Part shown: in pieces, positions 311-45,202 of the stretch
Layout of the letters: every line of letters begins with the position of its first letter
Numbering within the stretch: position 1 is the stretch's first letter
Virus record (IMG/VR): IMGVR_UViG_3300027821_000011
Coordinates: 1-46,045 of that record
Strand: one strand, 5' to 3'
DNA from: a virus
Length of the DNA: 46,045 nt
The notes under the pieces: generated by a model
Database searches by the model: none
Told to the model about the DNA's origin: nothing
Seen by the model: only the letters and a program-made list of their open reading frames with translations
Made by a program: the position numbers and the translations under genes

Positions 311-3067
311 TCATCCTCCCTCACTCTTGAGTGCAGCGTTGAGTGTACTGACAGAGATGCCAAGGGACTGGGCAACCTCGGCTTGTGTGTAGCCGGAGGC
401 TAGCCTAGACCTAGCCAGTACCATCTTCGTTGGTGTCATGCCCTGTGTGGTACGTGGTGTGGCTAGCTTCTTAAGCTCATCGATGTTGGCATTATCGATG
501 ATCTCAGACAGGCGGTTGGTACTGATAGCACCTGACTGTATAGCGTGCCACTCCCTAGCTGTGATCTCTATCATCTGCTTCTTAGCACCGACACGATCAC
601 GAGCCTGCTGCAGTGAGGTACCCTTTAGCTTCTTGTATGCATCAGGGTCCTCTTTGATATGGGGGTTATCGTGGAGGCGGGCGGCAACAATCTGGTTGGC
701 CACCAACTGTGCTTGTCTTTCGAGGGGGGCGTTCTTCTTGGCTACCCCCAGCTTGGCAGTTAGTGAAGCCACCTCATTGCGGTACACCTTTGCCGCAGAC
801 GAGGAGTAAGTCAGGCGCCCTGTCTGAAGAGCAGCAAGCCTGGCCCTGTTAGCCAGCCCCTTCATGCCGTTAGAGTGGGCGGCATAGATCTCTTCCATGG
901 GTGAGGGGGTATCACTCAGGAGAGTGCGGGCATCCGCCGTTTCGGCCAGCCTTTGAGAGGGGCGGGTCTTCACGATGGTGCGACCCCTACGATCTACGCT
1001 CGTGGTGCCCGTTTCCTCGAACATCCGTTGGCCTGTGACCGGATCGATAGGACCACCCTTTGATGCGGGGCGGGGCCTTCTTTCAGGAACCCGTATCTCG
1101 GATCCTGCCCTCGAGATGATGGTCGATGCGCCAGCAAGACGGCCCTTGGTAGTACGACCCTGGTACTTCGCCTTGAGCTGGGCTATGCCGTTGTCGACGT
1201 AGGACTGCTTGACATCGAGGTGGTGCTTCTCGGAATCGATGACTACCATCGAATGCTTGACAGCACGGGCTATCTCGGAACGATCTGCGCCCTTGATGGT
1301 CATGTCCGTTATCAGGTTGGACACATCGCCCATCTGCTGCTGCTTCGGCCGGCCCTTCGGATTCCTGCCGCCGTAATCCACCGATCCCGTCTTAGCGTGG
1401 TAGATACCGCCGTCGATGGTACGCATCCCGTCATGCGGGGCGTAGTGAACGATAGGATCGAAGTCGTTGAGGCTAGCCAACGAATCGGTGGTCCTGATGT
1501 CGCCACGCTTGTTCGGTATAACCAGGACCGTGTCACCGTCGAAGTCGGCACCAGATAGCCGCTTAGCTACGGAAGGATGGATTCCTACCGCATCAGGAGC
1601 GGACCCGATCGTCGACTTGGCCAGAGGATGCCGGTTGTTGACCGTGAGTTCCGGGATCTCGAACGTTCCCCCATGAGGGTGCCGGATCAGTACGACCTTC
1701 TCTCCGTTGTGGTAATTCGGAGCGTAGATCTGATCTGCCCTCATTCCCTCGATCGGGAGGATGACGTGAGTCTTCTGGCCCGGCATGGCTGCGGCCTTGA
1801 GGTGGACTGCCGCGGAATCAGCAGAGTCACCAAACGTCATGAGAAGCTTGTGCTTGATCACCGGGTTAGTCAGCCGCATGATCTCGTCTAGCTCATCACG
1901 CTTACTCTGAAGAGCCAGATCGAGCTGTCGCTTGGCAAGATGCGGGTTCTGCTTGGAAAGAACCTGGGAAGAGAGCGACCTGCTCCAATCCCTCCAGTCA
2001 CCTTGCTCGTTCACGATGTTCATCGGAGACTGGTGCTTCTTGCCCGAGCTATCGGTCCATGTCTTCTGCCGGATGGCCGAACCGAAAGGATTAACCGGAT
2101 CGTCTCCGACAGTCTTCATCGCATCGAGCTTGTTCGGTGACCGCCGCTTGTTGGTGTTGAACTGCAGATCGGTTCCGGCAGGAAGGCCATCCTTGTACAT
2201 GGCCATGCCCTTGAGGTAGTGACCGGGCCCTACCTTGATACGGACCTGAGCATAGGCCGAGTCACCGAGAGATACATCGGGAACTCCGGGCCGCACGAAG
2301 ATTATGCCATCGGCATTGCCTCCACCATCCTCGGCCCACCTGACACCGACTCGCTTAGGGTCAACAGCCACCGGGGGCTTTATGCTCTCGATGGTACGGC
2401 CGTGATCTGGGCTAGTCGCGGCGACAGTCTTGATGAGCTCGGGATGAGTCTTGACGTCTACGTACGTGGTTCCCGGAGGAGCCAGGACCTTGACGGTGGT
2501 CTTCTTCCCACCTGTTGTCCCTAGCTGAGGAACCTGAACGTTGTGAACTACGTAGCCCTGCTGCTTCAGCATCGCCACGGCGGTGGCCAGCTTGGTACTG
2601 CTGACTCCTCGCCAGTTCTCGGTTCCCTTGCCGATGTCCAGGTATCCGCCGGAATCAACCTGGTCCTTGAGGAAGGAAGAAGTAGCGTCGAGAACGCTCC
2701 TCTTCGCCGAGTTAGCCGGGTCGAGAAGAGCTCGGACGGATGACTCGTTGAGCCCCATCTGACGACCGATGGCAACGTTGGACATGCCCTTCTCGCTAAG
2801 ACGAAGAGCAAGCGTTGCCTGACCCCTGCGATGCTCGTCCTTGGCGATCGCGATCTTCGCCCTGAGATCGGTCGTGGAACCGAGACCGAGTCCTCTTGCT
2901 ATTTCAGGGTCAGACATGCCCTGCCGCTTGAGTGCAGCATGCTGATCCAGGAAACTTTTCCGGCCACGTTCCATCGGGGTTTTTCCGGATCCCCAAGGGT
3001 AACGACCGGAGTGGCGGGGCGTTCCGTAATGAAGAAGCTCGTCAGCTTCAACGATGACGTCAGTCAA
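311..3067 (-). CDS. Large DFDGD protein, putative phage two-barrel RNA polymerase
   Basis: The 918-residue protein has ADFDGD at about residues 507-512, matching the metal-binding DxDGD loop of multisubunit RNA polymerase beta-prime and of single-chain phage or RdRP-like relatives (YonO, QDE-1 type). It is preceded by an ordered segment with RHPHGG (about 463-468). The likely role is transcription of phage DNA. Two helix-turn-helix-like repeats lie at about residues 43-115 and a third at the C-terminus (about 890-915), suggesting DNA contact. The N-terminus carries HYGTPRHSGRYPWGSG (about 13-28), recalling a motif in phage head-associated proteins. The start is TTG at 3067 behind GGGAGG; no ATG is available before the conserved N-terminal motif. 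It directly follows two nuclease genes. The polymerase assignment rests mainly on one motif, so activity is inference. Confidence 0.6.
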   Translation of the reverse strand: MTDVIVEADELLHYGTPRHSGRYPWGSGKTPMERGRKSFLDQHAALKRQGMSDPEIARGLGLGSTTDLRAKIAIAKDEHRRGQATLALRLSEKGMSNVAIGRQMGLNESSVRALLDPANSAKRSVLDATSSFLKDQVDSGGYLDIGKGTENWRGVSSTKLATAVAMLKQQGYVVHNVQVPQLGTTGGKKTTVKVLAPPGTTYVDVKTHPELIKTVAATSPDHGRTIESIKPPVAVDPKRVGVRWAEDGGGNADGIIFVRPGVPDVSLGDSAYAQVRIKVGPGHYLKGMAMYKDGLPAGTDLQFNTNKRRSPNKLDAMKTVGDDPVNPFGSAIRQKTWTDSSGKKHQSPMNIVNEQGDWRDWSRSLSSQVLSKQNPHLAKRQLDLALQSKRDELDEIMRLTNPVIKHKLLMTFGDSADSAAVHLKAAAMPGQKTHVILPIEGMRADQIYAPNYHNGEKVVLIRHPHGGTFEIPELTVNNRHPLAKSTIGSAPDAVGIHPSVAKRLSGADFDGDTVLVIPNKRGDIRTTDSLASLNDFDPIVHYAPHDGMRTIDGGIYHAKTGSVDYGGRNPKGRPKQQQMGDVSNLITDMTIKGADRSEIARAVKHSMVVIDSEKHHLDVKQSYVDNGIAQLKAKYQGRTTKGRLAGASTIISRAGSEIRVPERRPRPASKGGPIDPVTGQRMFEETGTTSVDRRGRTIVKTRPSQRLAETADARTLLSDTPSPMEEIYAAHSNGMKGLANRARLAALQTGRLTYSSSAAKVYRNEVASLTAKLGVAKKNAPLERQAQLVANQIVAARLHDNPHIKEDPDAYKKLKGTSLQQARDRVGAKKQMIEITAREWHAIQSGAISTNRLSEIIDNANIDELKKLATPRTTQGMTPTKMVLARSRLASGYTQAEVAQSLGISVSTLNAALKSEGG

Positions 3068-3069
3068 GT

Positions 3070-3630
3070 CTAACCCGCCTCCCTGAGTAGTTCGATGCGC
3101 CTGTCGAACACGACGATCTTGCTCATGATGTGAGCGATAATGTCGACTGATTCTTCGGGATTCGAGACCAGGATCTCGTCGTCCTGATAGATCCGCAGTT
3201 CTATTTCTATCTCTCCGGGCTTGTACCCGTACTCCAGGCAGAACAAAGCCGCATAGATTTCTACCTGATGCATGGAGCCCGCGATGACGCCGGTTTTGAG
3301 GTCGTGGATCCGGAGCAAGTTCCTTCTGAACGAGATGGTGTCAGCAGTCCCGAAGCAGTTCTCTGAGTAGTACAAGACTTGCTCGGGGATCATCCGGAAA
3401 CCGATGGCGTCGTTCACGTAGTTGTTCAGGGTCTTATCAGAACGAGGAAGCTTTATGCCAAGCCGGACGGCGTGGTGAGCGAAGGCATGGAGCTCCACTC
3501 CTCTCGCAGCGGCCTGTGAGCTGAGGAAGACCTCATCCAGCTTGTCTGGATCGTAGTTGATCCAGTGGTACTTGCTTGGGCCGAGGAAGGCGTGCTGCCC
3601 TGCGAGATTTGAATGCGTGTTGAAGATCAC
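3070..3630 (-). CDS. PD-(D/E)XK nuclease, Cas4/RecB-like
   Basis: This 186-residue protein resembles phage Cas4/RecB-type exonucleases. It has an N-terminal QHAFLGPSKYHWINY segment (about 12-26), then GTADTISF and HDLKTG (about 94-113), giving the D...D-x-K metal site expected of the PD-(D/E)XK fold, followed by QVEIYAA. Such enzymes degrade or resect DNA during phage replication and recombination. No cysteine cluster for an iron-sulphur centre is evident. The start is GTG at 3630 behind AAGGAGG. The first 98 bases overlap the end of the preceding nuclease gene, unusually long for this window, but the conserved N-terminal segment supports the start. The stop lies just before the TTG of the DFDGD protein gene. 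Confidence 0.75.
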   Translation of the reverse strand: MIFNTHSNLAGQHAFLGPSKYHWINYDPDKLDEVFLSSQAAARGVELHAFAHHAVRLGIKLPRSDKTLNNYVNDAIGFRMIPEQVLYYSENCFGTADTISFRRNLLRIHDLKTGVIAGSMHQVEIYAALFCLEYGYKPGEIEIELRIYQDDEILVSNPEESVDIIAHIMSKIVVFDRRIELLREAG

Positions 3631-3898
3631 CTAGGACAACCTCCTTGTTTCCTGGGTGGATGAACGCCGCGAACGACATCCGGTCCATCATAGCTACCCA
3701 GTAATCCTGATTCGGCTGACGCTTGGCACCCCGGGCTTTCTTGCACTCGAGGGCTGCCCACATAGCTTTCCACAGGATGAGGAGATCGGGGATCCCTTGA
3801 ATGTAGTTGGGATCGTTGATCAGGACCACGCATCCGGGGAACATGCGACGAAGCTCAGCAATCAGTTCAGTCTTGAACGGACTCTCTGTGTTACCCAT
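3533..3898 (-). CDS. VRR-NUC-type nuclease
   Basis: A small nuclease of about 121 residues. GIPDLLILW followed by WAALECKKA gives the PD...E-x-K catalytic pattern, and a basic downstream helix (KRQPNQDYW) fits VRR-NUC or Holliday-junction-resolvase-like phage enzymes. The likely role is cleavage of branched or damaged DNA during replication. The open frame extends upstream to 3946, but ATG at 3898 has AAGGA in front and begins just before the conserved core, so it is preferred. The C-terminal 30 or so residues are basic and overlap the next gene in another frame. It is the first gene after the AT-rich control region at 3.95-4.17 kb. Confidence 0.75.
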   Translation of the reverse strand: MGNTESPFKTELIAELRRMFPGCVVLINDPNYIQGIPDLLILWKAMWAALECKKARGAKRQPNQDYWVAMMDRMSFAAFIHPGNKEVVLGDLQHAFKSRRAARLPRPKQVPLDQLRSRQAG

Positions 3899-3956
3899 GT
3901 CCCATCCTTCGCGAAAAACAGAACCCGTGATTTTAAAACTAATCACATTCTATTTC

Positions 3957-4174: not shown

Positions 4175-5464
4175 TTAAACCGTCGTCATGCTCCTAAGCC
4201 ACTTCAGCTCGTTGAAATTCTCCTTCCGCGAAAGCGTCGCAGCTATGGCTCGGTCTATCGGAGCAGCTGAAGAAATGACGTAGTACCAGAGATCGGTGAA
4301 GGGCGTATCCAGACGGTCGATCCTTCCCTTGGCTTGCTCGGTCTGACGGTAGGAGTAGCTGAGCGAGTAGAAAACGACCGTATCAGTCTCGGTGCAGTTC
4401 CACCCTTCAGCGCCGGCAGCGTACTGGACGAGGTAGACCCAGCTGTCAGTGTCCGGGATTGGCTCGTGCTTGTGGCCGTTCCATTCGGCAAGTGCAAACG
4501 ACGCCGGCGAGGAGCTCGATGTACTTCCACTCTCCTCCGCAGTTGCTGTGATCGAGCCAGAATTTCCGCCAGTCGGTCCGGTCTCCCACGGCGGCCACGT
4601 CGGCTCCTTCGTCGATGGTTCCGGACCGGCCGATGAATTCACATCCGCAGACAACGCTCTCAGGATCTCGAGCTCGTAGTCGAAGTTGTAGAAGATAATC
4701 ATGCGCGGATGCTTCGTCAACAGCTCGCGGATTCGCTCCACTCTCGACGATGAAGTGTTGACTGCTCTCCGTGTCAAAGAGAACAACTGCGAGACGTGCT
4801 GGATTGGCTTGTTCTCCAGGTAGTTCCATCTCTTCCGCCATACCTGATCGTACCTCTCCTTGTCGTAGTCGGCATAGACGTCTATCTCGTGCCGGACGGT
4901 GTGCTTCTCATACGGCATTTCTACAAGGATGTCCCGGAGATGGCGTGCCAGCACACCCGTGGAGATAAACCGCTCCACCTTCGGGTACTTCACAAAGGGC
5001 GCGAAGACGACATGCTCCCGCAGGAATTCCGTTCTCGACCTGTAGAAGCCGTTCGCCAGGAAGACGGGGATATAGTCCATCCAGGTATCCCCGGGCGTCG
5101 CGCTCAGCAAGATCCAGTTGTTGTTCTTCGTGATCTTCAGGAAGGACTTCACCCATGCGCCAGACCCCACGATCCTCTGCTCGTCGAAGATGAAGAACGC
5201 GTCCTCGATGTCCTCGTACGACTTGATGTTATGCCAGGAGTCGACCTCGGGGAACAGGCCGAGGAGCCGCGCCTCAGCCTGCCAGTCCCCGGAGTCTCTT
5301 TTCTTCGCCGTCGTGATGACTATCAGCCGCTCGACGGTCTCGATGTCGTTGTAGTAGGTCAGGGCCGTGATGGTCTTACCGCTGCCGACAGGTCCCTTAA
5401 GGATGTTGCCGTTGCGTAGCTTCAGGAGGGCTTTCTCCTGATGCGGCATCAGCGTCAGCGGCAT
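4175..5464 (-). CDS. SNF2/DEAD-like helicase
   Basis: A 429-residue superfamily 2 ATPase probably acting in phage DNA replication or recombination. Visible motifs are Walker A GPVGSGKT (about 21-28), motif II FDEQR (about 93-97), motif III LLSATPG (about 118-124), and in the second lobe GAEGWNCTETD and motif VI QAKGRIDRLD (about 376-385). The C-terminal lobe matches phage SNF2-type proteins. Between the lobe-2 strand IIFYNFDYELE and AEWNGHKHEP lies a low-complexity insert of roughly 45 residues rich in S, T, G and P. The ATG at 5464 has GGGAG in front. The start region overlaps a small membrane protein gene. Confidence 0.85.
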   Translation of the reverse strand: MPLTLMPHQEKALLKLRNGNILKGPVGSGKTITALTYYNDIETVERLIVITTAKKRDSGDWQAEARLLGLFPEVDSWHNIKSYEDIEDAFFIFDEQRIVGSGAWVKSFLKITKNNNWILLSATPGDTWMDYIPVFLANGFYRSRTEFLREHVVFAPFVKYPKVERFISTGVLARHLRDILVEMPYEKHTVRHEIDVYADYDKERYDQVWRKRWNYLENKPIQHVSQLFSLTRRAVNTSSSRVERIRELLTKHPRMIIFYNFDYELEILRALSADVNSSAGPEPSTKEPTWPPWETGPTGGNSGSITATAEESGSTSSSSPASFALAEWNGHKHEPIPDTDSWVYLVQYAAGAEGWNCTETDTVVFYSLSYSYRQTEQAKGRIDRLDTPFTDLWYYVISSAAPIDRAIAATLSRKENFNELKWLRSMTTV

Positions 5465-6893: not shown

Positions 6894-7469
6894 CTAAGCT
6901 ATTACCTCCTCCACTTCTCTTTCCCTTCCCATCGTGTTTATGGCGCTGTCTGGGACGCCGCTGTCCGGAGTGTCGATGTACTTCAGCTCAAGCTCGTCCT
7001 CGGCGATCGTGACGTAAATCGATTTGAGGTAAGCCGAGATGCCTTCCCTGCCTCCGACGTTGTACCGCCGGGGGTTGATGATCAGGTCGACGTACGTGAT
7101 CTGCGCGTAGTCGATGACTGAGACCATGTCCTCGTCGAGGTTGGTCTTGCCGCGGCTGGTGATCAGCACGACCCGCGGGGGCATCGTCCGGGTTCCGTCC
7201 CGCTTCTTGTACTTGACCTTTACCTCGAGGATCGGCTGCGGTGCTTCTCCCTCGACCCTGGGCTTCAGTTCCCGGATGTTGAAACCGTCAGCCTTCATGG
7301 CCTCGGCGAGTTCGTCATCCAGCAGGAAGCAGAAGTTCCGGTCACCCTCAGCGTTGAAACGCCCGGGCTTGCCGCTGAAGTTGCGGAAGATGATCCGGAC
7401 GTCCTCGAAGGTGATGGGCTTCAGGTACTCCTCGGTCGGAGCCGGCCTGTCCCTGGTTCTTGCAGGCAT
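6894..7469 (-). CDS. Likely ssDNA-binding protein
   Basis: A protein of about 191 residues resembling phage proteins called single-stranded DNA-binding or helix-destabilising. Conserved-looking features are IIFRNFSGKPGRFN (about 26-39), NFCFLLDDELAEAMKADGFN, VVLITSRGKTNLDED, a VDLIINPRRYNVGG strand, and YLKSIYVTIAEDELE near the end. The pattern fits a beta-barrel core with an acidic tail. The frame opens with GTG at 7472 followed by ATG at 7469; the ATG overlaps the upstream stop (TGATG) and is preferred. It lies in the replication arm near the polymerase, helicase and nucleases. The family recall is from memory, not searched. Confidence 0.6.
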   Translation of the reverse strand: MPARTRDRPAPTEEYLKPITFEDVRIIFRNFSGKPGRFNAEGDRNFCFLLDDELAEAMKADGFNIRELKPRVEGEAPQPILEVKVKYKKRDGTRTMPPRVVLITSRGKTNLDEDMVSVIDYAQITYVDLIINPRRYNVGGREGISAYLKSIYVTIAEDELELKYIDTPDSGVPDSAINTMGREREVEEVIA

Positions 7470-7819
7470 CACATCGCCCCGAACATCTTCAGGAAGTCCT
7501 GCTGCGCCCGGATGAGCTCGGCCTGGGCGGAGGCGAAGCCGGTGAGGTGCTGGATGTAATCCTTGTCGTCCGTCTGATTCCGGCCCACCTCGAGGAAATA
7601 GCTCTGTGCCCGGATGAACGCGCCCTGGGCCCTGATGAAGGTCATGACCCGGTCGTACGAGGTCAGTTCCGTTACCGCGGAACGGTTCTCCTCCAGGATG
7701 TCGGTCATTGCCGGCATGGCCCGTTCGTGCCTGGTGCTCGCGATCGGGTCGTCGGGGATAGGCCCGACCTCGGGGAGGATCAGGGTGTCCTTCTTGTCAT
7801 CGTCCGGTGTGGACGCCAT
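7469..7819 (-). CDS. Hypothetical helical protein, 116 aa
   Basis: The first 30 residues are acidic and proline-containing. The rest is helical, with a repeated RAQ pattern (FIRAQGAFIRAQSYF, then SAQAELIRAQQDF), suggesting an oligomerising coiled coil. ATG 7819 has AGGAG. Its stop shares bases with the start of the ssDNA-binding-like gene. It could be a partner of that protein, but no function is recognised. Confidence 0.7.
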   Translation of the reverse strand: MASTPDDDKKDTLILPEVGPIPDDPIASTRHERAMPAMTDILEENRSAVTELTSYDRVMTFIRAQGAFIRAQSYFLEVGRNQTDDKDYIQHLTGFASAQAELIRAQQDFLKMFGAM

Positions 7820-8758: not shown

Positions 8759-11700
8759 CTAACTAGTGAACCATTCGAAGTCGCCGAACTTGGAGATGCT
8801 CTTGACGGCGTCGTCCACGAGCTTCCTGAAGTAGCTCATGTCGATGTCGTCTTCCAGCGAGAGATCGAAGACTGTGGCTGCTTCCTTCCACAAGTATCCC
8901 TTGCTTCCGGAAGCCGCATGGAATACTCCGTCCTTTCCCCGGAGCAGTTTGCCGCCGCCCGTTCCTTCCTTGACCGGCACGAAACTGCCGGCACTGCCCA
9001 CGAACTGAGGACCGTCGCCGAAGTCCAGGTAGAGCGCCGCGCCAACGACACTGCGGGTCTCGCAGTAATCGAGGAACACGAGCGGCTCGTGGTTGAACAG
9101 AGTCTTGAAGACATACGGATGCGAGAACTGCGCACCGGTTGCCGTCCAGATCCCGGTGTTCGTCTTCGCGATGTAGACGGCATCGTTCACGAGGCAGAAT
9201 TTCTCGTACGTAACCTCGTGCTCGAAGGTGTATCCGTAGTCCTTGCCGAACTGCTTCACGAACTCGATGATGGGGAGATCCGCACCAGGGATCTTGATCG
9301 AGTCGGTCTTGATGTGAACGACCTGGAAACCCTGCGCCTGGACCGCGTTCTTCAGGTCGATCATGAACAGGGCACCGCGTTTGGCGACGATGTTGTCCTT
9401 GTTCCGCAGGTCCCTGAACGGGTTGTCGAAGTTCGCCGACGTCAGGCCGTAGACGATGTTGATAATGATCTTGAGCGCGTATGCAAGCGCTGCAGCATCC
9501 TCACTTGATCCGAGGTAAGGCTTGAGTTTGCCGTCCAGAAGCCGCCCCGCAGTGTTATAGTCACCGCGTTTGATGGCGAGTCGCGCTTCAGTGAGAGCCG
9601 TGAAACGTGGAGTGTAAGGGCCGAATAGATCCAGCACTGTGATCGAGGTCGGGTGCATTGAGGCCACGTCGAGCACCGCGACATCAGAGTACATACCTGG
9701 TTCTGCATAGACGTAACCGCCCTCCCCGACGATCTCTGCCTTGTAGATGCTCTTGCCGAAGTCGTAGACGTAGCCCGGGAACTCCCCGGACAAGTCTGTG
9801 TAGATGAAATCGGCCTGGGGGTTCTTGACGTCCCCGAAGATGATCTTCGCGGTGTGCCGCTGGGTGGTGTCGTTCACCGTAAGACCGCTCAGTGCCGCGA
9901 GCATCTGCCGCGCTCGGAAATCCTGAATGCGATCCTCGAAGACCTGCTCTTCCGTGATGACGTCGTTGGCGCAGTAATTGGCTACGTGATCCCAGAGGGA
10001 GGGGTCAACTGGCTCATCCCAGGGGAGTCCCAGTTCCCGGTGATTCAGCCCGAGGTCGATCTGGAACCGCTTGAGGCTCTTCTTCTCGCTGGAGAAGTCG
10101 AAGATGTCGGCAAAGGAGAGGTTGTAAGCGTCCCCGAAGAATGCTCCACCCTCTCCCTTGACGATCCTCTGACTGAGCTTGTAGAGGTCGAGCTCGCTGT
10201 ACCCCATGATCCGGGCATAGATGATGTGGTTGTCGTATCGCCGGTTGTTGTAACCGATGAGGTTCATCCGTGCGAGCTCTTCCATCTCCACGGAACTCGG
10301 GTTGATCATCTTCACGACGTTGTCACTGCCGCGGAACTTCCAGCAGCAGACGAAGAGGTTAGGGAACACCTCAAGATCGTAAAAGACGTACCTGTCATCC
10401 TGTGGCTCGGGAGCCGGCGGCAGCTCAGCTTCCGAGGAGAACTTCATGTCGATGACCTTGCGAATGCAGTACTCCGGCTGGTTAGTCGAGTTGTTCGCGA
10501 AGGCAAGAATCCTTGGCCGCATGTCCGTGACGTCATAAGGAAGCCCAGAGTTATAGGCGTCCTCGAGGATCTTGTAGATGAAGTCGATACTCGGTTTGGT
10601 CCCCGGGTGTATCTCCTTGTGGAGGTTCCTCAGGATCAGGTTTCTGAGGCCTCTTTCGCTCTGCACTGTGTCAGAGTCAATCATGCGCTTCTCCTTCAAG
10701 GGAAGACCGCTAGATATCGTAGCTACCGGGATGTTGTTGCACTTCGACAGGCTACGGCGCAGGGAAGCGTCGCCGGAGAATATCTTAACTTCTATCCCGA
10801 CATCGAATACGCGGCTGAGCTTGGTAACATCTCCTGTGTAAATGTAATGCAGGTGGATGCCTGATCCGCTCTGGCTGTACTCGGCGTACGTTGGCGGCCA
10901 TCCGCTTGCGGCTTCAAGGTTCCTTTCTAGGCTCTTCTGGCCATCATCTCCCGTCAGGTCAAAGTCGATGACGATGTGCTGTCCAGGAGGCTTGACGTAA
11001 TGCAGCTTCGTTGTATCGAGGCCTGCAAGAGTCGTCCTGACATTCGCCCACTTCTTGAGCGGGGTCCCGTCCTTATTCGCGTACTGAGCCGGGCAATCCG
11101 CCAGCATCTCGTCAAGTAGAGAGGTCGTCTCGTCCATGACAAGCGATGGCACCTCCGGCTCAGGGAGCCTAAGATAGGTGAGCTTCTGAGTCTGGAACCC
11201 CCGGAAGAGACTTCTTACCTCGATCCCGTCGACTCGGGTCTTCGGATGAAACTCGTCAAAGTAGTTCCTGAGTTCGTCCCGGAACCTGTGCATGTTCATC
11301 ATGCGCTCGAATCCGGATTCGGCACAGTAGATCTTGTAAAGCCCCCAGGCTTCCTTGAGGGTTATGCCGTTCCGCTCCTTGAGCATGTCAAAACTCGACA
11401 GGAGGAAGTTGTAGAAGATGTCCGTCCTGATGATCATGTCGGTCGGCCGGTAACCGGTGTAGAAGTTCTTCCCGGTCTTCCGGTAGACATCCAGGCAGTG
11501 ACTTGCGATCGCCCCGAGCTCGAACTGAATCTGGCTGATCAGTGCGTTGTATTCCGCCGGGGGGAATAGTTCGCCGGTCGGGTTGACGTCGATCAGCCGG
11601 CGGATAAGCCCGGACTTGGCGTCAGTGATCCTTACCGACTGGTTCGTCCCGATAAAGAGAAATGCCTGGATCTGTGCCATGTAGAGACTTTTGTACTTCT

Positions 11701-12469
11701 CGTTCATGACCATCGGCTCGTGGGAGATGATCGTGCTAAGAATGGTGTTATCCGTGATCCTCGACAAATCCCCGTCGTGCTGAATAGCCACGAGTGGGTT
11801 GGTCCTGAAAGCTTCCGAGGCGAATATGTTCCCGCTGTTGTTCGTCCCCGTAAGAGCTCGGGCATCGAACACCGCCCAGTACCCGTCGAAGAGCTGCTCG
11901 AGGATGTGCAGGAACGTCGACTTGCCTGTCCCTGCTTCTCCGTAGAGAACGATGAACTTCTGGATATACTTAGCGTCACCCGCGATTATCGCTCCCGTAG
12001 CCCACTCCAGCTTCAGCCGCTCCTCTGGATCGAAGAGACGGGTCATCAGCTTGTCATAAGCCGCGATAGGACCAGGCTCGAGATCGTATGAAAGCCTTTT
12101 CGAGCTGTGGTCCTCTTTCCTGGGAGGCGTGTTAGCGAAGGCCAGGTTACTGTCAAGCGTGACATGCGTGTCCGGCATGTTGGCACAGTATCTTCTGAAC
12201 TCAAGCCAGGTATTGCTCTTGTACCGCCCGAGTGTCATGACCCGTGTACTGGTGATGTCTCCGAGTTCCGCCGCTCTGGCGTTGATCTCACGATCTATAA
12301 TTCGCCTGGCAGCAAACTCATCCGTGGTCCAGAGGCCGGCGGACTCGTCCCAGATAGCGTAAAAAGCTCCGCCTCGGATCATCAGGTCTGTTGAACGATC
12401 GACTATCCAGCTGGGATATACCGCAAACCCGTCCTTCGTCTCTCGCCGTTCGACCTGAAAAAAGTCCAT
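8759..12469 (-). CDS. SF3 helicase / primase-like / family B DNA polymerase fusion
   Basis: One uninterrupted 1236-residue frame. Residues about 110-430 form a D5-like SF3 helicase, with Walker A GEAGTGKST (about 177-185) and sensor IGTNQS (about 273-278). Residues about 480-600 look like a primase or PrimPol domain: IDFDLTGDD (501-509), SGSGIHLHY (534-542), then IEVKIFSG. The rest is a family B DNA polymerase: exonuclease YDLEVFPN (697-704), GYNNRRYDNH (739-748) and YCANDVITEE (832-841); motif A DVASMHPTS (934-942); motif B ALKIIINIVYG (998-1008); motif C IKTDS (1053-1057). All metal-site aspartates appear present. The protein would unwind, prime and copy phage DNA. ATG 12469 follows GGAGGAGG. 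Usual homologues are separate proteins, and the helicase normally follows the primase, so the order is unusual. Confidence 0.85.
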   Translation of the reverse strand: MDFFQVERRETKDGFAVYPSWIVDRSTDLMIRGGAFYAIWDESAGLWTTDEFAARRIIDREINARAAELGDITSTRVMTLGRYKSNTWLEFRRYCANMPDTHVTLDSNLAFANTPPRKEDHSSKRLSYDLEPGPIAAYDKLMTRLFDPEERLKLEWATGAIIAGDAKYIQKFIVLYGEAGTGKSTFLHILEQLFDGYWAVFDARALTGTNNSGNIFASEAFRTNPLVAIQHDGDLSRITDNTILSTIISHEPMVMNEKYKSLYMAQIQAFLFIGTNQSVRITDAKSGLIRRLIDVNPTGELFPPAEYNALISQIQFELGAIASHCLDVYRKTGKNFYTGYRPTDMIIRTDIFYNFLLSSFDMLKERNGITLKEAWGLYKIYCAESGFERMMNMHRFRDELRNYFDEFHPKTRVDGIEVRSLFRGFQTQKLTYLRLPEPEVPSLVMDETTSLLDEMLADCPAQYANKDGTPLKKWANVRTTLAGLDTTKLHYVKPPGQHIVIDFDLTGDDGQKSLERNLEAASGWPPTYAEYSQSGSGIHLHYIYTGDVTKLSRVFDVGIEVKIFSGDASLRRSLSKCNNIPVATISSGLPLKEKRMIDSDTVQSERGLRNLILRNLHKEIHPGTKPSIDFIYKILEDAYNSGLPYDVTDMRPRILAFANNSTNQPEYCIRKVIDMKFSSEAELPPAPEPQDDRYVFYDLEVFPNLFVCCWKFRGSDNVVKMINPSSVEMEELARMNLIGYNNRRYDNHIIYARIMGYSELDLYKLSQRIVKGEGGAFFGDAYNLSFADIFDFSSEKKSLKRFQIDLGLNHRELGLPWDEPVDPSLWDHVANYCANDVITEEQVFEDRIQDFRARQMLAALSGLTVNDTTQRHTAKIIFGDVKNPQADFIYTDLSGEFPGYVYDFGKSIYKAEIVGEGGYVYAEPGMYSDVAVLDVASMHPTSITVLDLFGPYTPRFTALTEARLAIKRGDYNTAGRLLDGKLKPYLGSSEDAAALAYALKIIINIVYGLTSANFDNPFRDLRNKDNIVAKRGALFMIDLKNAVQAQGFQVVHIKTDSIKIPGADLPIIEFVKQFGKDYGYTFEHEVTYEKFCLVNDAVYIAKTNTGIWTATGAQFSHPYVFKTLFNHEPLVFLDYCETRSVVGAALYLDFGDGPQFVGSAGSFVPVKEGTGGGKLLRGKDGVFHAASGSKGYLWKEAATVFDLSLEDDIDMSYFRKLVDDAVKSISKFGDFEWFTS

Positions 12470-12481
12470 GGATCCTCCTCC

Positions 12482-13030
12482 CTAATACATCTGACGTTCC
12501 GTCATGTAAGCATGCATCTGGTACCACAACTCGAGGGTACGCTGATCCTTCTTAGCTCTCTGTAGAGGGAAGATCCCGCCCTTTCCGTTTCTGGAATAAC
12601 GGCGGTTGTTGAAGTTGTTGAGGATCCTGTTGATTCTAATCCCGGATCGCGGGACGTAGTCTCTATCGTTGTACTTGGCAAGGTCAAGGTTGTCGATGAA
12701 CTCCCTGAACCACCACTCGATACCGTTCTCGACCAGGTAATCCGCCCGGTAAGCGAGAGCGATGAGCATCTCGAATATCGAGCACTGCCCAAGGCTTTGC
12801 AGCTCAGTGTAATCCTCCACAACGATGCTCTTCAGCGTCGATATGAATTCATCCCTGAGCTGTATTCCATCGCGAGCTCGGTTGTCGTCGTTCGGAAGCG
12901 AGTCGTCGAACCTCGTCTCGTGCATCAGCGTGCACACGTTCACGTAGGAGAGGGGGGACTTCTCGTCATAGATCTTGAAGACCCGGAAATACAGGTAACC
13001 GAAGTAACCATGCTGAATGTCATCGGTCAT
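12482..13030 (-). CDS. Conserved phage protein, 182 aa
   Basis: A soluble protein of a family I recall from many siphophages of Gram-positive hosts, function unknown. Marker segments are LPNDDNRARDG (about 50-60), QCSIFEMLIALAYR (about 82-95), EWWFREFIDNL (about 104-114) and a C-terminal YSRNGKGGIFPLQRAKKDQR then LELWYQM (about 144-172). The start ATG 13030 overlaps the stop of the previous gene (ATGA). It is directly followed by the polymerase fusion, so a replication-linked role is possible but not shown. Confidence 0.75.
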   Translation of the reverse strand: MTDDIQHGYFGYLYFRVFKIYDEKSPLSYVNVCTLMHETRFDDSLPNDDNRARDGIQLRDEFISTLKSIVVEDYTELQSLGQCSIFEMLIALAYRADYLVENGIEWWFREFIDNLDLAKYNDRDYVPRSGIRINRILNNFNNRRYSRNGKGGIFPLQRAKKDQRTLELWYQMHAYMTERQMY

Positions 13031-13731
13031 GTCGGCTTTCCGTAACCAAGAACGGTCTGTGTGTATGACTCGTTCCTCCTGGCGATCTCGAAATCCACCT
13101 GGAGTTTGTCGTTACGGACATACAGGACGTCCGGGTCGTCGGAGTCCTGGCCGAAGAGATTCTCGAAACCTACCCCGATGATCGTCGTATCCCTTATGGG
13201 GGCGTCTCTCTCATCACAGAGCGTGTCGTCTGTCGTGAAGTAGGTGAGCGTGATCTTCGAGTAGGTCTCGTTCTCCTCGCTGAACTCCGCGAGGGTGATC
13301 ACATACGGCTTAGTAGTATCCCGTACCAGAGGTGGCGGAGGCGAGTCATCAGCGTCCTCACCCTCATCCTCGGTCTTGTCTCCATCTCCCGCTTCCTCAA
13401 GTCCTTCGAGGTCGGGATGGCGAGGGTGAAGCACGAGTTCAATACGGGGATCTGCGATCCTGGTGATGACCCGTCCGGTGGTTCGTACTCCGCCAGGATC
13501 AGCCACGGTGGCTTCTGCCCGTTCGCCGGCGTCACTATCTTCTCCGGCGGCAGTCGCGGTGCGAAGTTTATCCGCATAGTACTTCTTGATCCCTCTGAGC
13601 TCGTTGACGAGTTCCTTCTCCATCTGCCGCTTGGCGATATACCATCCAAGTACGGCCCCGACGCCAGCACCAAGAGAAGTACCGAGTAGAACAGAAGCGC
13701 CATCGATCCTCACTCCCTTGATGTTGGTCAT
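13027..13731 (-). CDS. Membrane-anchored conserved phage protein, 234 aa
   Basis: An N-terminal glycine-rich hydrophobic segment (about 12-32) is followed by a basic stretch, a long acidic low-complexity linker (about 100-130, DGDKTEDEGEDADD) and a C-terminal domain from about 138. That domain resembles a common phage family (PYVITLAEFSEE, LTYFTTDDTLCDERDAPI, DPDVLYVRNDKLQVDFEI, YTQTVLG). Function unknown; the topology suggests a cytoplasmic domain tethered to the membrane. ATG 13731 overlaps the stop of the DUF6353-like gene, with only a weak SD. Confidence 0.7.
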   Translation of the reverse strand: MTNIKGVRIDGASVLLGTSLGAGVGAVLGWYIAKRQMEKELVNELRGIKKYYADKLRTATAAGEDSDAGERAEATVADPGGVRTTGRVITRIADPRIELVLHPRHPDLEGLEEAGDGDKTEDEGEDADDSPPPPLVRDTTKPYVITLAEFSEENETYSKITLTYFTTDDTLCDERDAPIRDTTIIGVGFENLFGQDSDDPDVLYVRNDKLQVDFEIARRNESYTQTVLGYGKPT

Positions 13732-14600
13732 ATCGATATGGGCCCGTCGACATTGAAGTCGAGGAAGCAGGTCGCCTCCAGTCCGTTGACGAACGCCCGG
13801 GAGTTCTCGTCGCCGATGTCGTAGATGCCGAAGTCAACGTAGCCGTCGCCGTTGCCCTTCTTCCTCCAGCCGACCGTCTGACCGGCCTGGGTCCGCGGCA
13901 GCCCCAGCCATTCGTAGACCTCGTTCAGGAAGACGTACCCGACGCCCTGGAGCCGGTCGTTCGCGTAGTTCTGCTGACCGCGGACGAACTGCAGGTTCCA
14001 CTCAGGGGTCTTGGTCCAGTTCGGGTTGGACTCGTCGAAGAACTTCCCGTAGATCGACGGGATGAAGTCGTCAGGATCGATCTCGCAGGCGACGATGTCC
14101 TCACCGTCGTTCTCGATCCTCCTGACCCTCACCCCCCGGTAGAGCTCCAGCTCCTTCTCGGTGCCGTACGCCTCCTCAACCCTTGCCCGGTAGGCCCGGA
14201 AACCCTTGTCCAGAGCCATGTAGGCCGCGACCAGCGACGCCTGCTGCCGGCGCATGAGGCCGTGAGCGGAGATGATGCAGAGCACGGAGACGCCACCGGT
14301 GATGATCGGCGGGCCGAATACGCGGACGATCTTGGCGCTCTCGATGATCCAGACCCTGCCGATGGCCCGGACCCGGTCCTTCTCCGTGTACGAGTCGGTG
14401 ACCTCAACGTTCGAGACTTCCCGGATCCGCTTCCTGCGAGCCTCAAGCGGTTCCTGCGCCCTGAGGACCGCCTTGCCGACCAGGTACGTGGTCGCGGCGA
14501 ATCCCGCGATGCCGGCACCCGTGAGGATAACCGGGCCGTGCTTCCTGAGGAACATGCCGGTCGCGCCGGCCGCCCTCTGACTGAGTGCGTCGAAATTCAT
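13728..14600 (-). CDS. DUF6353-like membrane protein, copy 1
   Basis: A 290-residue protein with hydrophobic segments at about 24-44 (VILTGAGIAGFAATTYLVG) and about 95-112 (IITGGVSVLCIISAHGL), then RRQQASLVAAYMALDKGFRAYRARVEEAYG. The same architecture occurs in the gene at 16763-17566, so the two are paralogues. The C-terminal half is soluble with FLNEVYEWLGLPRTQAGQTVGW. Similar proteins are widespread in siphophages of Gram-positive hosts with unknown function. It is part of a five-gene overlapping chain. Confidence 0.75.
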   Translation of the reverse strand: MNFDALSQRAAGATGMFLRKHGPVILTGAGIAGFAATTYLVGKAVLRAQEPLEARRKRIREVSNVEVTDSYTEKDRVRAIGRVWIIESAKIVRVFGPPIITGGVSVLCIISAHGLMRRQQASLVAAYMALDKGFRAYRARVEEAYGTEKELELYRGVRVRRIENDGEDIVACEIDPDDFIPSIYGKFFDESNPNWTKTPEWNLQFVRGQQNYANDRLQGVGYVFLNEVYEWLGLPRTQAGQTVGWRKKGNGDGYVDFGIYDIGDENSRAFVNGLEATCFLDFNVDGPISI

Positions 14601-16762: not shown

Positions 16763-17566
16763 CTAGAAGCATTTCCCGTAATCCGGCCTCGGATTGTTGA
16801 GGTAGCTGAAGGCGAGACAGGGGATTCCGTCGGGATGGAGATGGGAAGTGAAGGCGATCTTGACCCGGTTCTCGATGTTCCATCCGACTTCGTCGCCGAC
16901 GTCCGTGTGCTCCAGGCCGATCTCGTCGCCGAACTCGTTGAGAGAAGCGTACATATCGTTGCCGATGCGAAAGTTGATCTCGTTCTCGGCCCGCCGAATC
17001 TTCTCGATGTCGGAGCGAAAGTAACGCCCCGTGTACGATTCGAAGCAGAGCTGGTCACTCCCCGAGGCGAGGATGATCTCCTTACTGGGAAGAGGGGTGC
17101 CCTCAATCTGCTTCTGGGCCACGACCTCGCGGATCTTCTCTTCCTTGCCGGCGCCGATCGCTTCGACCACGTGATCCTTGTATTCGCGCATCTGCCGGTC
17201 GACGAGCGTGTAGGCGGCCACGAGCGCGGCGTTCCGCTGCATCCCGATCTTGTTGGCTCCCGCGATGCAGGCGATGGTGGCAGCGCCCGCGACTCCCGCC
17301 GGAAGATAGTGCACCCAGGTCGCCTTGATGACCTCGAGGATCGACAGGTTAGCCTGATCGTGAGTCGTTACCGCGACTTGCTCTTGGTCAGCCCGATCGT
17401 AGATCTTCTTGTCCTTGGCATCCGCGATGCTCTCCACGGCCCTTGGCGTGGCCCGGACAGCGAGAGCTGCCGTGATGATGACGCCGGCGATCGCAGCTCC
17501 CGACAGGATCGCTGGTGAATTCCGCTTCGTAATATGGCCGAGTTGATTTAGCCATTCGATGTTCAT
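16763..17566 (-). CDS. DUF6353-like membrane protein, copy 2
   Basis: A protein of about 267 residues paralogous to 13728-14600. It has two hydrophobic segments (AAIAGVIITAALAVRAT, AGVAGAATIACIAGANKI), then MQRNAALVAAYTLVDRQMREY, matching the order in copy 1. The C-terminal part is soluble, with SLNEFGDEIGLEHTDVGDEVGW. The frame begins at 17584, but ATG 17566 has AAAGGAGG at ideal spacing and is preferred. Function unknown. It starts just downstream of a terminator. Confidence 0.75.
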   Translation of the reverse strand: MNIEWLNQLGHITKRNSPAILSGAAIAGVIITAALAVRATPRAVESIADAKDKKIYDRADQEQVAVTTHDQANLSILEVIKATWVHYLPAGVAGAATIACIAGANKIGMQRNAALVAAYTLVDRQMREYKDHVVEAIGAGKEEKIREVVAQKQIEGTPLPSKEIILASGSDQLCFESYTGRYFRSDIEKIRRAENEINFRIGNDMYASLNEFGDEIGLEHTDVGDEVGWNIENRVKIAFTSHLHPDGIPCLAFSYLNNPRPDYGKCF

Positions 17567-17585
17567 TGTTGCCTCCTTTGGCAAG

Positions 17586-28452: not shown

Positions 28453-29196
28453 CTACACCATTGTGGAACTTACCTGGAAAAGATCATCCGGAAGGAGGAA
28501 AACCGTATCCGCGGTAAGCTGGAACGTATCTGCGCCGACCATCGAGACGTTGGCGTCCGGTCCCGTAACCGTGAAAGTTCCGTCCCCGTTGTCCGTGACC
28601 GTGAAGTTCGTGTGCGACTCGAAGATGTCGTAAATATCTTCTATTTCGGGAAGAGACGGGTCGTTCACGTCATCGCCGTAAATCAGGTCCTCAAGGTCAT
28701 CGATGGCAGCAGGTGGAGCATCGTCGACCATTATCACGAGGTGTGACGAAGGTTTCCCCCCGGAGATATTTACCGGTTGGGTAGTGAAAGCCCACTCGAA
28801 AGCCATTGGGTGCGGATTCTCATCCATCGTCTTGTAGTCGTTCTTAGGCGACACGGCCAGGGCGTTATAGACGATATGAAGCTCTCTGTTCGTCCTGAAA
28901 CAGAAATTGAACGGCTGCTTCGGCTGGCCGGTAAGTACGCCCACGATGCCGAGACACGGCTCAAGCTCGTCGGGATAAGTGAACGCGGATATGGTCCCCG
29001 AGAAAGCTGTCGTGACGTTCCGCGTCAAATATCGCATGCCGTCGAAGTACCTTGGGTCTTGAGTCTGCCCGGCTCCCTCGGTTACCGAGATAAGCCCGTT
29101 CCAGGCAACCCCCGGGGCATTTTCGGTGTACAGGACACCCTGGCTGACTCCTGAGTCGTAAAACCGCTGTAGCGGGTCGTCCCAAGTAATCCTCAT
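28453..29196 (-). CDS. Tail-tube-like protein, paralogue C
   Basis: A 247-residue member of the three-copy family in 28.4-31.1 kb. Shared marks are WDDPLQRFYDSGVSQGVLY near the start, WNGLISVTE, then TISAFTYPDE, FNFCFRT, HIVYNA, AFEWAFTT and a SSHLVIMVDD strand. It has a longer C-terminal end than the others, with an extra beta-rich domain of about 50 residues (FTVTDNGDGTFTVTGPDANV). It may form part of the tail tube or a decoration. ATG 29196 overlaps the stop of paralogue B. Confidence 0.7.
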   Translation of the reverse strand: MRITWDDPLQRFYDSGVSQGVLYTENAPGVAWNGLISVTEGAGQTQDPRYFDGMRYLTRNVTTAFSGTISAFTYPDELEPCLGIVGVLTGQPKQPFNFCFRTNRELHIVYNALAVSPKNDYKTMDENPHPMAFEWAFTTQPVNISGGKPSSHLVIMVDDAPPAAIDDLEDLIYGDDVNDPSLPEIEDIYDIFESHTNFTVTDNGDGTFTVTGPDANVSMVGADTFQLTADTVFLLPDDLFQVSSTMV

Positions 29197-29834
29197 GATC
29201 CCACCAACGTCATGAGCTCGTCCACCGTTGGGAAACGAGGATCGGTAGTGCTAGTTCCGTAGAGAATATCCTCAACGGATGCTAGAGCTGCCGGATCAAC
29301 CTTGAGCGAGTTGACGACGAAATGCGAAGCTGGCTTGACCGAGGGAACGTCTTCCGGAGTCGTGAAGATCGTCCAGGAGCGAGTCTTCAGAGGATGCCTG
29401 TCAGTCATTGTCTCGTGGGTGAAGTCCGCAACGGTCGCCGTCACGTTGTAGACCATGTGAAGCTTGTAGCCCACGGAATAACTCTCCCAGTTACGCCCTA
29501 TCGACGTCCGGTAAGAGAGGGAGAAAGCATCGCGGTGCTGATCACAGACATAGAGGCCTGCGGAAATCCTCATACGGCCTGCGCAGGAAGCAAACTCCGG
29601 CGGACTCGAGAAAGCCTCGATCGTTGCCGAATACTCCTCGAACGACGGGAGGTTCATGTACTTTTCCCCGTCGATGTAAAACTCCCTGGTGGTACCGCCG
29701 CCGGTGGGAACTTCAGAGACGCCTACGAGACCGTTCCATACGACTCCTGCCATCGGCGGAACGTAAAGCATTCCCCTGTCTACTCCGGTTTCGAACCACC
29801 GGGTGCTCATTTCGTCCCATTGCACTTTCGGCAC
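29193..29834 (-). CDS. Tail-tube-like protein, paralogue B
   Basis: A 213-residue paralogue with WDEMSTRWFETGVDRGMLYV, VWNGLVGVSE, then ATIEAFSSPPEFASC, FSLSYRT, HMVYNVTATV and SVEDILYGTSTTDP near the end. It starts with GTG 29834 behind GGAGGTGAAGC. It lies between the tail chaperone and paralogue C. Function inferred as tail tube or tube-like. The family is recognised from its similarity to the gene at 30418-31071 and from the overall tail gene order. Confidence 0.7.
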   Translation of the reverse strand: MPKVQWDEMSTRWFETGVDRGMLYVPPMAGVVWNGLVGVSEVPTGGGTTREFYIDGEKYMNLPSFEEYSATIEAFSSPPEFASCAGRMRISAGLYVCDQHRDAFSLSYRTSIGRNWESYSVGYKLHMVYNVTATVADFTHETMTDRHPLKTRSWTIFTTPEDVPSVKPASHFVVNSLKVDPAALASVEDILYGTSTTDPRFPTVDELMTLVGS

Positions 29835-30417: not shown

Positions 30418-31071
30418 CTATGGCCCGAACATGGCTATGACGTCGTCCGGCAACGGGAGCTTGGGCGCAGCGGTAGCGCCGTAGAGGATGTCCTCGAGGG
30501 ACTTCATCTTCGCGGGGAGCTCCTTGGTGGAGTCCGCCACGATCAGGCTCGTCGGCGCCATGTCCGTGACGGCGACCGGCGTGCTGGTGACATCCCAGGA
30601 GAACGAGAGAGCCTCCGGGGAGTCGTTGATCGTCGCGTAGGCCTTCTCCGAGGGGGAAGCGAGAAGGCCGTACACCAGGTGGATCTTGTAGCCGAGACCG
30701 GAGTCGACGTCGCTGCCGACCTTGGTCCGGTAGGAGAGCCCGAAGACAGCTCTGGGCTGCTGGCTGATGTTGACGCCAGCTCCGACCGTCACGGTGCCGT
30801 CGCACGCACCGAACTCGTCGGGATAGGTGAAGGCCTCGATCGTGCCGCCGAAGGTCTCCGCCGACAGCAGGTTGAGGTACTTGATGTTGTCTGCGTAGGC
30901 CGGGTTCGGTTCGGCGCCGGCAGGCGTCTCGGTAACGGTGGTCAGACCGTTCCAGGCGAAGCCGGTGTCGTACTCACCTGTTGCCTTGTTCAGCAGGTAG
31001 AGAACGCCGTGATCTACGCCCTGCTCGTAAAGGCGCTTACCGGTGTCATCCCACACGAGGGGGGTGGTCAT
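30418..31071 (-). CDS. Major tail tube protein, paralogue A
   Basis: A 217-residue protein with WDDTGKRLYEQGVDHGVLYL, FAWNGLTTVTETPAG, NLLSAETFGGTIEAFTYPDE, VFGLSYRT and HLVYGLLASPSEKAY, the usual pattern of phage major tail proteins. Of the three paralogues it has the standard location, just after the head-tail joining genes and before the chaperone, and very G+C-rich third positions suggesting high expression, so it is the best candidate for the main tube subunit. ATG 31071 has AGGAGGAG. Confidence 0.8.
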   Translation of the reverse strand: MTTPLVWDDTGKRLYEQGVDHGVLYLLNKATGEYDTGFAWNGLTTVTETPAGAEPNPAYADNIKYLNLLSAETFGGTIEAFTYPDEFGACDGTVTVGAGVNISQQPRAVFGLSYRTKVGSDVDSGLGYKIHLVYGLLASPSEKAYATINDSPEALSFSWDVTSTPVAVTDMAPTSLIVADSTKELPAKMKSLEDILYGATAAPKLPLPDDVIAMFGP

Positions 31072-38425: not shown

Positions 38426-39232
38426 TTAGGCAGCGGACTCGATGGGAACCGCGGTCTCGTAGCAGGTGCTACGCGGAGCCGGGGTCGGGTCGCCGTGGTA
38501 CGCGCCGAGGGTCGGGCCGTCGGTCTGGTACTGGCACGGGTCGCGAACGAGACGCGGCTGGGAAGCCACGCCACGTCCCTGGACGTTGAGCGACACCTGG
38601 TCGAACTGCACCACGGTCGGGAGACCGCGGAGGTGCCGGATGATCTGGGCCAGGACCTGCGCCCGGGTCAGGCCGTCGAGCGGGCAGACCCGCAGGTTAC
38701 GGCTGTAGTTCGAGTTGAGGTTCTGGCTGTAGTTCCAGCCGTCGTTCCAGCTCCAGGACTTGAAGTTCCGCACGTGCCCGGAGGCGAGCAGGCTCACGAT
38801 CGCCGTACCCCTGCCGGTCTCGTTGCGGTAGATGCCCTGGCCGCCGTTGAACGTCCAGCCGACCGTCTGCAGAAGCGCCGCCGAGCAGGTTCCCGGGTAG
38901 AGCTGCGGGAGACCCAGCGGGCTGTGACGGAGGTTGACCGAGTTGACGCCCCGGTCGTCCAGGATGTGCCGGAACAGGTTGCCGCCGAGAACCGTGTCGT
39001 TGCCGTCCGTCAGGCGGACCGGGCCGCGAGCGAGAACGGTGTTGAGGTCACGGGCACCGACATCGGTCCGGGCGATCTCGAACTGCTGCGGAAGCAGCTG
39101 CACCCTCGGCGGGTGCTGGAACTGCTGCTGCGTCGGAGTCGGCGACGGCGTCACCGTAGCCGAAGCCGCCGGGACACCGATCGACAGTGCCATGAAGCCA
39201 GCCGCTGCGGTAGCGAGTAGGATCTTCTTCAC
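38426..39232 (-). CDS. Secreted protein of unknown function
   Basis: About 268 residues. The frame extends further upstream, but GTG 39232 directly begins a classical Sec signal peptide: VKKILLATAAAGF, a hydrophobic core, and an AASA cleavage site before TVTPSPTP. The mature part starts with a P/T/Q-rich stretch and is otherwise globular, with four cysteines (near PGTCSAA, LRVCPLD, RDPCQYQ, RSTCYET), which suits two disulphides outside the cell. No domain recognised. Third positions are strongly G or C, as in the major virion genes, suggesting strong expression. It has its own upstream gap (39233-39368) and structured downstream gap, so it looks like an inserted, independently expressed gene. 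Confidence 0.75.
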   Translation of the reverse strand: MKKILLATAAAGFMALSIGVPAASATVTPSPTPTQQQFQHPPRVQLLPQQFEIARTDVGARDLNTVLARGPVRLTDGNDTVLGGNLFRHILDDRGVNSVNLRHSPLGLPQLYPGTCSAALLQTVGWTFNGGQGIYRNETGRGTAIVSLLASGHVRNFKSWSWNDGWNYSQNLNSNYSRNLRVCPLDGLTRAQVLAQIIRHLRGLPTVVQFDQVSLNVQGRGVASQPRLVRDPCQYQTDGPTLGAYHGDPTPAPRSTCYETAVPIESAA

Positions 39233-39368
39233 TTGCGTGTACTCCACTTCTTTGTTTGGGGTACTTCCCCCTAGATGAAGAACGGTCTTGCTCGTGTTGT
39301 TGTCTGAATCGCCTCCTAAGGTAAAGGGATAGGACTCGGCTCCGCAGCGGGAACGGTGCCGAAGCTTG

Positions 39369-43512: not shown

Positions 43513-44409
43513 CTAGAGACGGCAGGCAGCACGAGCAGAGTTGTATGCGGAATCGGTGTTGTTTCCCCAGACCCCGTCGGCGCCCTTCGGGTCGAAGCCC
43601 ATCCCAAGCAGCGCCTTCTGAACCGCGACCACGGTGTTGTAGAGCGCGGTGTTCGATGCGGGACCCCAGCTACCATCCTGTGTCGTCCCGACGACCTTCT
43701 GCGCGTACTGAACACCATAGGGATATCTCCTTCCGCCGTAGGGAGAGGCCGCTTCAAGCGCCTCGCCGCACTTGTCGGTCTCGGGTCCCCACTGGTTGTC
43801 GGCCGTGGTGTGAACGGCCCGCTGGAACGCCGTGCAGTTCGGCTTCGGCTTTCCGCCGCCGCCGGAAGGAGGCGGCGTGGAACCGAGGTACTTGCCGACC
43901 ATTTTGAGGAAGTCGGTCCACGGGAAGGCAGGGCCGGGGTCGTAGTGATCGCTCGACCGGAAGACCCGGTTCACGTCGACGTGGCCGACGAACCCCTTGG
44001 TGTAAGCCCTGATCTGGGCGTCCGTGTTGCGCCGGAGCGGGATCGAGTACTTGCGGCACCACTCCGCGGCGCACACAGCGGCGTTGTCGAGCATGGACCG
44101 CGAGTACGCGTCGTTCCAGCCGGAACTGCCCTGACTGGCGTAGCCGGCCAGTTCGATGTTGAGCGAGTTCGGGTTCACCGGCGGCATCGTCCAGGCCTCG
44201 TCACCGTCGTTGACGCAGCGAACTCGCGAGTTGTTGTCGACACACCAGTGCGACGACGCCTGAGTAGCCGGCTTCGCGAAGTAGGCCGCGACGTTCTCGG
44301 CGGTCGAGGAACCTTCCGGTGCCTCCATGGTGTGGATGCCGATGAAGACGATGGATCCGCGCCGGCCGGAACGCCTGTTCGGCGAGATCATTGTGCTTGT
44401 TGCTACCAT
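43513..44409 (-). CDS. Endolysin: N-acetylmuramoyl-L-alanine amidase with wall-binding domain
   Basis: The C-terminal 298 residues of the joined frame, likely also made separately from ATG 44409, which has AGGAG five bases upstream. Residues about 20-170 form an amidase_2 domain: FIGIHTMEAPE with a candidate zinc histidine, then DEAWTMPPVNPNSLNIELAGYA, GHVDVN and SDHYDPGPAFPW. After a P/G-rich linker the C-terminal about 120 residues resemble a peptidoglycan-binding domain (TAFQRAVHTTADNQWGPETD, DPKGADGVWGNNTDSAYN). It would cut host peptidoglycan at lysis, with the holin far away at 20.0 kb. Confidence 0.85.
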   Translation of the reverse strand: MVATSTMISPNRRSGRRGSIVFIGIHTMEAPEGSSTAENVAAYFAKPATQASSHWCVDNNSRVRCVNDGDEAWTMPPVNPNSLNIELAGYASQGSSGWNDAYSRSMLDNAAVCAAEWCRKYSIPLRRNTDAQIRAYTKGFVGHVDVNRVFRSSDHYDPGPAFPWTDFLKMVGKYLGSTPPPSGGGGKPKPNCTAFQRAVHTTADNQWGPETDKCGEALEAASPYGGRRYPYGVQYAQKVVGTTQDGSWGPASNTALYNTVVAVQKALLGMGFDPKGADGVWGNNTDSAYNSARAACRL

Positions 44410-45187: not shown

Positions 45188-45202
45188 AGTTATCACTCAG
45201 CC

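Follow-up and report, generated by a model that had tools for sequence, protein, structure and literature searches.

The window analysed here (the whole stretch of viral DNA under study, 46,045 nucleotides, positions 1 to 46,045 of IMG/VR record IMGVR_UViG_3300027821_000011) contains a long open reading frame at 8759..12469 whose product is very probably the principal replicase of a tailed phage. As the original prediction had stated, the gene is one frame of 1236 residues; it lies on the minus strand, where it starts with ATG and has no internal stops, while the plus strand of the same interval has many. The start codon is preceded by AGGGAGGAGG, a strong Shine-Dalgarno-like match. A PHROG profile search matches residues 1-1235 to phrog_4210 'DNA polymerase' (1858.9 bits), and the protein aligns with GP55 of lactococcal phage 1706, which has been purified and named a "four-in-one replicase" by Zhang, Lu, Zhu and Huang (NAR 2025, gkaf542; PMC12205980). 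The gene and its parts are as follows.

8759..12469, minus strand: whole replicase gene, 1236 amino acids in a single open frame (ORF reading, phrog_4210, GP55 alignment)
12474..12483, minus strand: Shine-Dalgarno-like AGGGAGGAGG, 4 bases before the replicase ATG (read directly)
12026..12469, minus strand: residues 1-148, N-terminal part of the helicase region, conserved in length
11237..12025, minus strand: residues 149-411, SF3 (D5-like) helicase (Pfam, PHROG and PDB profiles; invariant residues)
11093..11236, minus strand: residues 412-459, helicase-primase linker region (conservation, length variation)
10670..11092, minus strand: residues 460-600, predicted archaeo-eukaryotic primase (AEP, PriS-like) catalytic domain (Pfam and PHROG across the family; AlphaFold and Foldseek)
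10451..10669, minus strand: residues 601-673, four-helix domain equivalent to the GP55 helical domain (aHD), with Y645 and F657 (helices in the model; GP55 mapping)
10394..10450, minus strand: residues 674-692, primase-polymerase linker, 17-39 amino acids (length variation)
9920..10393, minus strand: residues 693-850, 3'-5' exonuclease (phrog_1252, 4e-37; invariance)
8762..9919, minus strand: residues 851-1236, family B polymerase palm, thumb and C-terminal tail (Pol II structures; invariance)

The helicase region (residues 1-411) spans 405-419 amino acids across all aligned sequences. A Pfam search gave no separate match for residues 1-148; residues 149-411 match DUF5906 above the cut-off (1.6e-9), Pox_D5 weakly, the helicase parts of the phrog_1829, 864, 1156 and 6088 primases, and that of the 7ola primase (4e-5). 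The SF3 motifs are readily located: Walker A at G177-T185 (with K183), Walker B at D232/D234, the sensor at N276 and the arginine finger at R290/R291, with G177, G182, K183, T185, D234, N276, R290 and R291 all retained in 67 of 67 homologues. Beyond a linker whose core (424-459) is poorly conserved and varies from 34 to 77 amino acids, the AEP motifs are D502-F-D504 (motif I), S-x-S-G-x-G-x-H539 (motif II) and E560-x-K562 (motif III), and within the helical domain that follows Y645 is tyrosine in 64 and F657 phenylalanine in 66 of 68 aligned sequences. The exonuclease motifs (D698-x-E700, Y745-D746 and Y832-x3-D836) and the polymerase motifs (D934-x2-S-M-H-P, K1000-x6-YG with Y1007, and K1054-T-D1056-S with T1055) complete the set, and the polymerase region matches the E. 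coli Pol II structures 3k57 and 1q8i at 0.003-0.004. For all four activities, the pivotal catalytic residues are the same in every one of the 67 full-length homologues, far beyond chance. The C-terminal tail ranges from 119 to 222 amino acids over the alignment. The motifs, the profiles and the structural model thus uphold the domain identities and order first read from the DNA, in which an SF3 helicase is followed by a primase-like region and then by an exonuclease and polymerase.

The description of the exonuclease and polymerase motifs as complete was slightly too strong. Exo I-III and Pol A-B are present, as in proofreading family B polymerases, but motif C (residues 1054-1057; 9299-9310, minus strand) reads KTDS rather than the canonical DTDS, and the E. 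coli Pol II sequence aligned with it begins this motif with aspartate. The same KTDS is found in all 67 homologues (one as KTDC) and in the active GP55; it is a variant shared across the family and not a defect.

The central question for this assignment was the identity of the middle region. On its own, the window's sequence matches the Pfam Prim-Pol family PF09250 weakly and below the cut-off (E=0.13), and a PDB profile search with the middle-domain alignment returned no primase. The top match in that search, a lactococcin immunity protein (E=0.02), covers helices only and was taken as chance. Both results would sit comfortably with a relic or structural linker that has lost primase activity, priming being left to host DnaG or another factor. 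Across the family the signal is stronger: PF09250 matches 14 of 21 members (best 8.7e-4), AEP-TOTE matches six, and the primase family phrog_3022 matches 19 of 21. An AlphaFold model of the region, built from an alignment of 48 sequences with the phage-collection loci left out, has a pLDDT of 90.5, and its ten best Foldseek matches in the PDB are all NrS-1 PrimPol or pRN1 ORF904 (E 1.4e-4 to 1.1e-3), the first unrelated match following at E 0.54. Computed over the complete two-domain model, the TM-scores of these matches are low at about 0.3, probably reflecting a differently placed trailing helical domain. The model thus predicts a true primase (PrimPol) fold, the structure that the original prediction had proposed to look for and whose absence would have told against it. 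A relic or linker is also at odds with the invariance of D502, D504, H539 and E560 (67/67), with the position of the AEP and helical domains (mean identity 0.61-0.64) alongside the polymerase palm as the best conserved parts of the protein, and with the finding that GP55 synthesizes primers with its counterpart of this domain, to which key-residue mutants assign the activity (PMC12205980). We therefore consider an inactive middle region very unlikely and favor a functional primase.

The arrangement of these domains is unusual, as had been noted from the sequence. The window's AEP residues 473-540 align with positions 50-123 in the N-terminal part of the DNA primase family phrog_1829, while its helicase residues 149-406 align with positions 482-739 in the C-terminal part; the order in the window protein is therefore reversed. 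More generally, phrog_1829, NrS-1 PrimPol, the 7ola primase and pRN1 ORF904 have component domains homologous to those of the window protein, but place the AEP before the SF3 helicase and lack a PolB domain. The aHD takes the place of the helix bundle domain of such AEP-first primase-helicases (PMC12205980). Stand-alone phage family B polymerases (phrog_1252-like, such as that of Enterococcus phage phiSHEF4) share the exonuclease and polymerase domains, yet the phiSHEF4 enzyme, at 764 amino acids, has no helicase or primase attached.

Related genes show that the long frame is a property of the family. In the phage collection 260 records match the replicase at E 1e-5, none of them at 60% identity or above, and 252 of the 260 cover at least 80% of the query. 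These belong to phages of Arthrobacter, Gordonia, Streptomyces, Rhodococcus, Curtobacterium, Lactococcus and Listeria and to human-associated phages; the host counts among these annotated records (Arthrobacter 95, Gordonia 55, Streptomyces 54) are biased by phage-isolation programmes. IMG/VR contributes 66 replicase loci, mostly full length in one frame, with about 50 contigs having the same single frame; one locus (L002) carries a replicase gene identical to the window's. The full-length homologues supply the three-part order that the original prediction had suggested seeking in related phages, with its catalytic residues intact. A frame created by joining separate genes through assembly or sequencing error might draw support from one homologous contig, L051, which has frameshifts; these are scattered over several domains in the manner of sequencing errors, and we rejected a natural gene split in L051 on the same ground. 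The recurrence of this single frame in over 250 records from phages and some 50 contigs in IMG/VR excludes a sequencing join as its source, and with GP55 having been expressed and purified as one protein (PMC12205980), an artefact retains practically no credence.

The closest biochemical reference for this intact protein is GP55, whose sequence we took from NC_010576. GP55 combines a helicase, a PriS-like domain, the aHD and PolB in one chain; it unwinds DNA in a UTP/dTTP-dependent manner, synthesizes RNA primers with a preference for 5'-CCAAC-3', extends them, has 3'-5' exonuclease and strand-displacement activity and copies ssM13 de novo (PMC12205980). It is mainly dimeric and needs its aHD for priming (PMC12205980). 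The window protein is 38.7% identical to GP55 by BLASTP (E=0, 889 bits; residues 1-1230 against 1-1298), or 40.5% over aligned columns, and shares with it the four blocks, their succession (SF3 helicase, PriS-like AEP, aHD, exonuclease plus PolB) and the neighboring genes. All GP55 essential residues that could be mapped are identical: K189 corresponds to K183 (Walker), D509 to D504 (AEP), D712/E714 to D698/E700 (exonuclease), D949 to D934 (polymerase) and Y655/F667 to Y645/F657 (aHD). The difference in length (1317 versus 1236 amino acids) lies mostly in the C-terminal tail. Homology and conserved residues thus suggest that the activities of the window protein are most likely those of GP55, and the notion of a one-protein replisome, raised from the sequence, gains support by analogy with an enzyme of the same order that has all of them. 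The novelty implied at that stage does not survive: GP55 was purified and assayed in 2025 (PMC12205980), and the annotation of Rhodococcus phage ReqiPoco6 already recorded a primase domain combined with PolB.

By analogy with GP55, we propose that the N-terminal SF3 domain would hydrolyze nucleotide (UTP/dTTP in GP55), unwind the duplex ahead of the polymerase and mediate dimerization, that the AEP and the following four-helix domain would make short RNA primers at loosely specified sites, and that the C-terminal family B domain would extend these with 3'-5' proofreading and helicase-assisted strand displacement. In a dimer the two subunits may divide the work, one priming and its partner extending. 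We infer these activities, the nucleotide preference, the dimer model and a reliance on the neighboring ssDNA-binding protein from the GP55 system; nucleotide and priming-site preferences may differ from those of GP55 because identity is below 40%. The three blocks are parted by two linkers of low conservation and variable length (34-77 and 17-39 amino acids), which, together with the ability of the GP55 primase and polymerase to work in trans (PMC12205980), could be read as signs of a polyprotein cut after translation into helicase, primase and polymerase. Such processing is extremely improbable, as a dedicated protease was not found near the gene, GP55 is active uncut and deletion of its polymerase domain harms its helicase (PMC12205980).

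The genes downstream place the window protein in the same setting as GP55: homologues of 1706 gp66, gp67, gp68, gp69, gp75 (RNA-polymerase-like) and gp76 follow in the same order. Four of them are listed here.

6894..7472, minus strand: single-strand annealing/ssDNA-binding protein, 1706 gp66 homologue (phrog_4787, 4e-61; PF24083, 8e-61; 33% identity)
4175..5464, minus strand: separate DEAD/SF2-type helicase, 1706 gp67 homologue (phrog_62, 7e-53; Helicase_C, 2e-5; 37% identity)
3533..3946, minus strand: VRR-type endonuclease, 1706 gp68 homologue (phrog_93, 2e-11; 1706 and Artorias matches)
3070..3630, minus strand: Cas4-like exonuclease, 1706 gp69 homologue (phrog_3953, 8e-74; 39% identity to gp69)

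The annealing/ssDNA-binding protein is a likely replication partner of the replicase, and unwinding need not rest on the replicase alone, because a separate SF2-type helicase (4175-5464) is encoded. A scan of the 30 larger ORFs of the window, whose record may be incomplete, revealed no DNA polymerase, primase or DnaB-type helicase besides the replicase. At 311-3067 (minus strand) lies a gene for a 918-residue protein matching phrog_4291 'RNA-dependent RNA polymerase' at 1218 bits; its ADFDGD resembles the catalytic loop of double-psi beta-barrel RNA polymerases, and it has helix-turn-helix matches at both ends. Phage 1706 (as gp75) and phages of Gordonia and Streptomyces carry the gene in synteny, under varying annotations: RNA-dependent RNA polymerase, HTH protein or hypothetical protein. 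Its product is possibly a phage RNA polymerase.

Several other minus-strand genes of the window merit description. In the frame at 43513-44850, residues 10-143 form an HNH endonuclease domain and residues 150-328 an endolysin domain of the amidase type, an unusual combination that reflects either a fusion or an insertion. Three neighboring ORFs (28453-29196, 29193-29834 and 30418-31071) all match the major tail protein family phrog_2645, which suggests duplication of the tail tube gene. Two phrog_2152 paralogues are found at 13728-14600, which also matches DUF6353, and at 16763-17584; related pairs of this type occur in Gordonia phage Artorias and in ReqiPoco6. A 990-residue ORF (39369-42341) had no match in PHROGs or Pfam and is close to further unmatched ORFs at 38426-39427 and 44735-45702.

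In a tree of the full-length proteins, the window protein groups with three IMG/VR contigs (support 1.0), and this group of four nests with proteins of Streptomyces, Gordonia and Rhodococcus phages in a clade (support 0.997) that is separate from the Lactococcus branch holding GP55; the host is therefore probably an actinobacterium. The 'DNA primase/polymerase' proteins of Gordonia, Arthrobacter, Streptomyces and Rhodococcus phages (PHROG 4210), known by annotation, are full-length relatives of about 49-57% identity and share replication neighbors with the window in those compared. It is conceivable, though we regard it as unlikely, that enzymes of this actinophage branch are of another kind than GP55, perhaps using nucleotides differently or initiating replication at an origin with no help from a host protein. 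Together with the ssDNA-binding protein and the product of the RNA-polymerase-like gene (311-3067), they would then make up a module for replication and transcription that is nearly independent of the host. The window protein is rather a further GP55-type replicase, an enzyme kind already published. More than 1000 GP55 homologues have been reported, with an emphasis on human-associated hosts (PMC12205980), and one remaining difference from that work is ecological, the matching records here being mostly from Arthrobacter, Gordonia and Streptomyces phages.

The four-in-one replicase is thus widespread in actinobacterial and human-associated phages; more than 250 sequenced phages encode it, where it is in most cases annotated incompletely as 'DNA polymerase', 'DNA primase/polymerase' or 'hypothetical protein'. 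One protein that unwinds, primes, extends and proofreads is useful for amplification tools and for studies of minimal replisomes.
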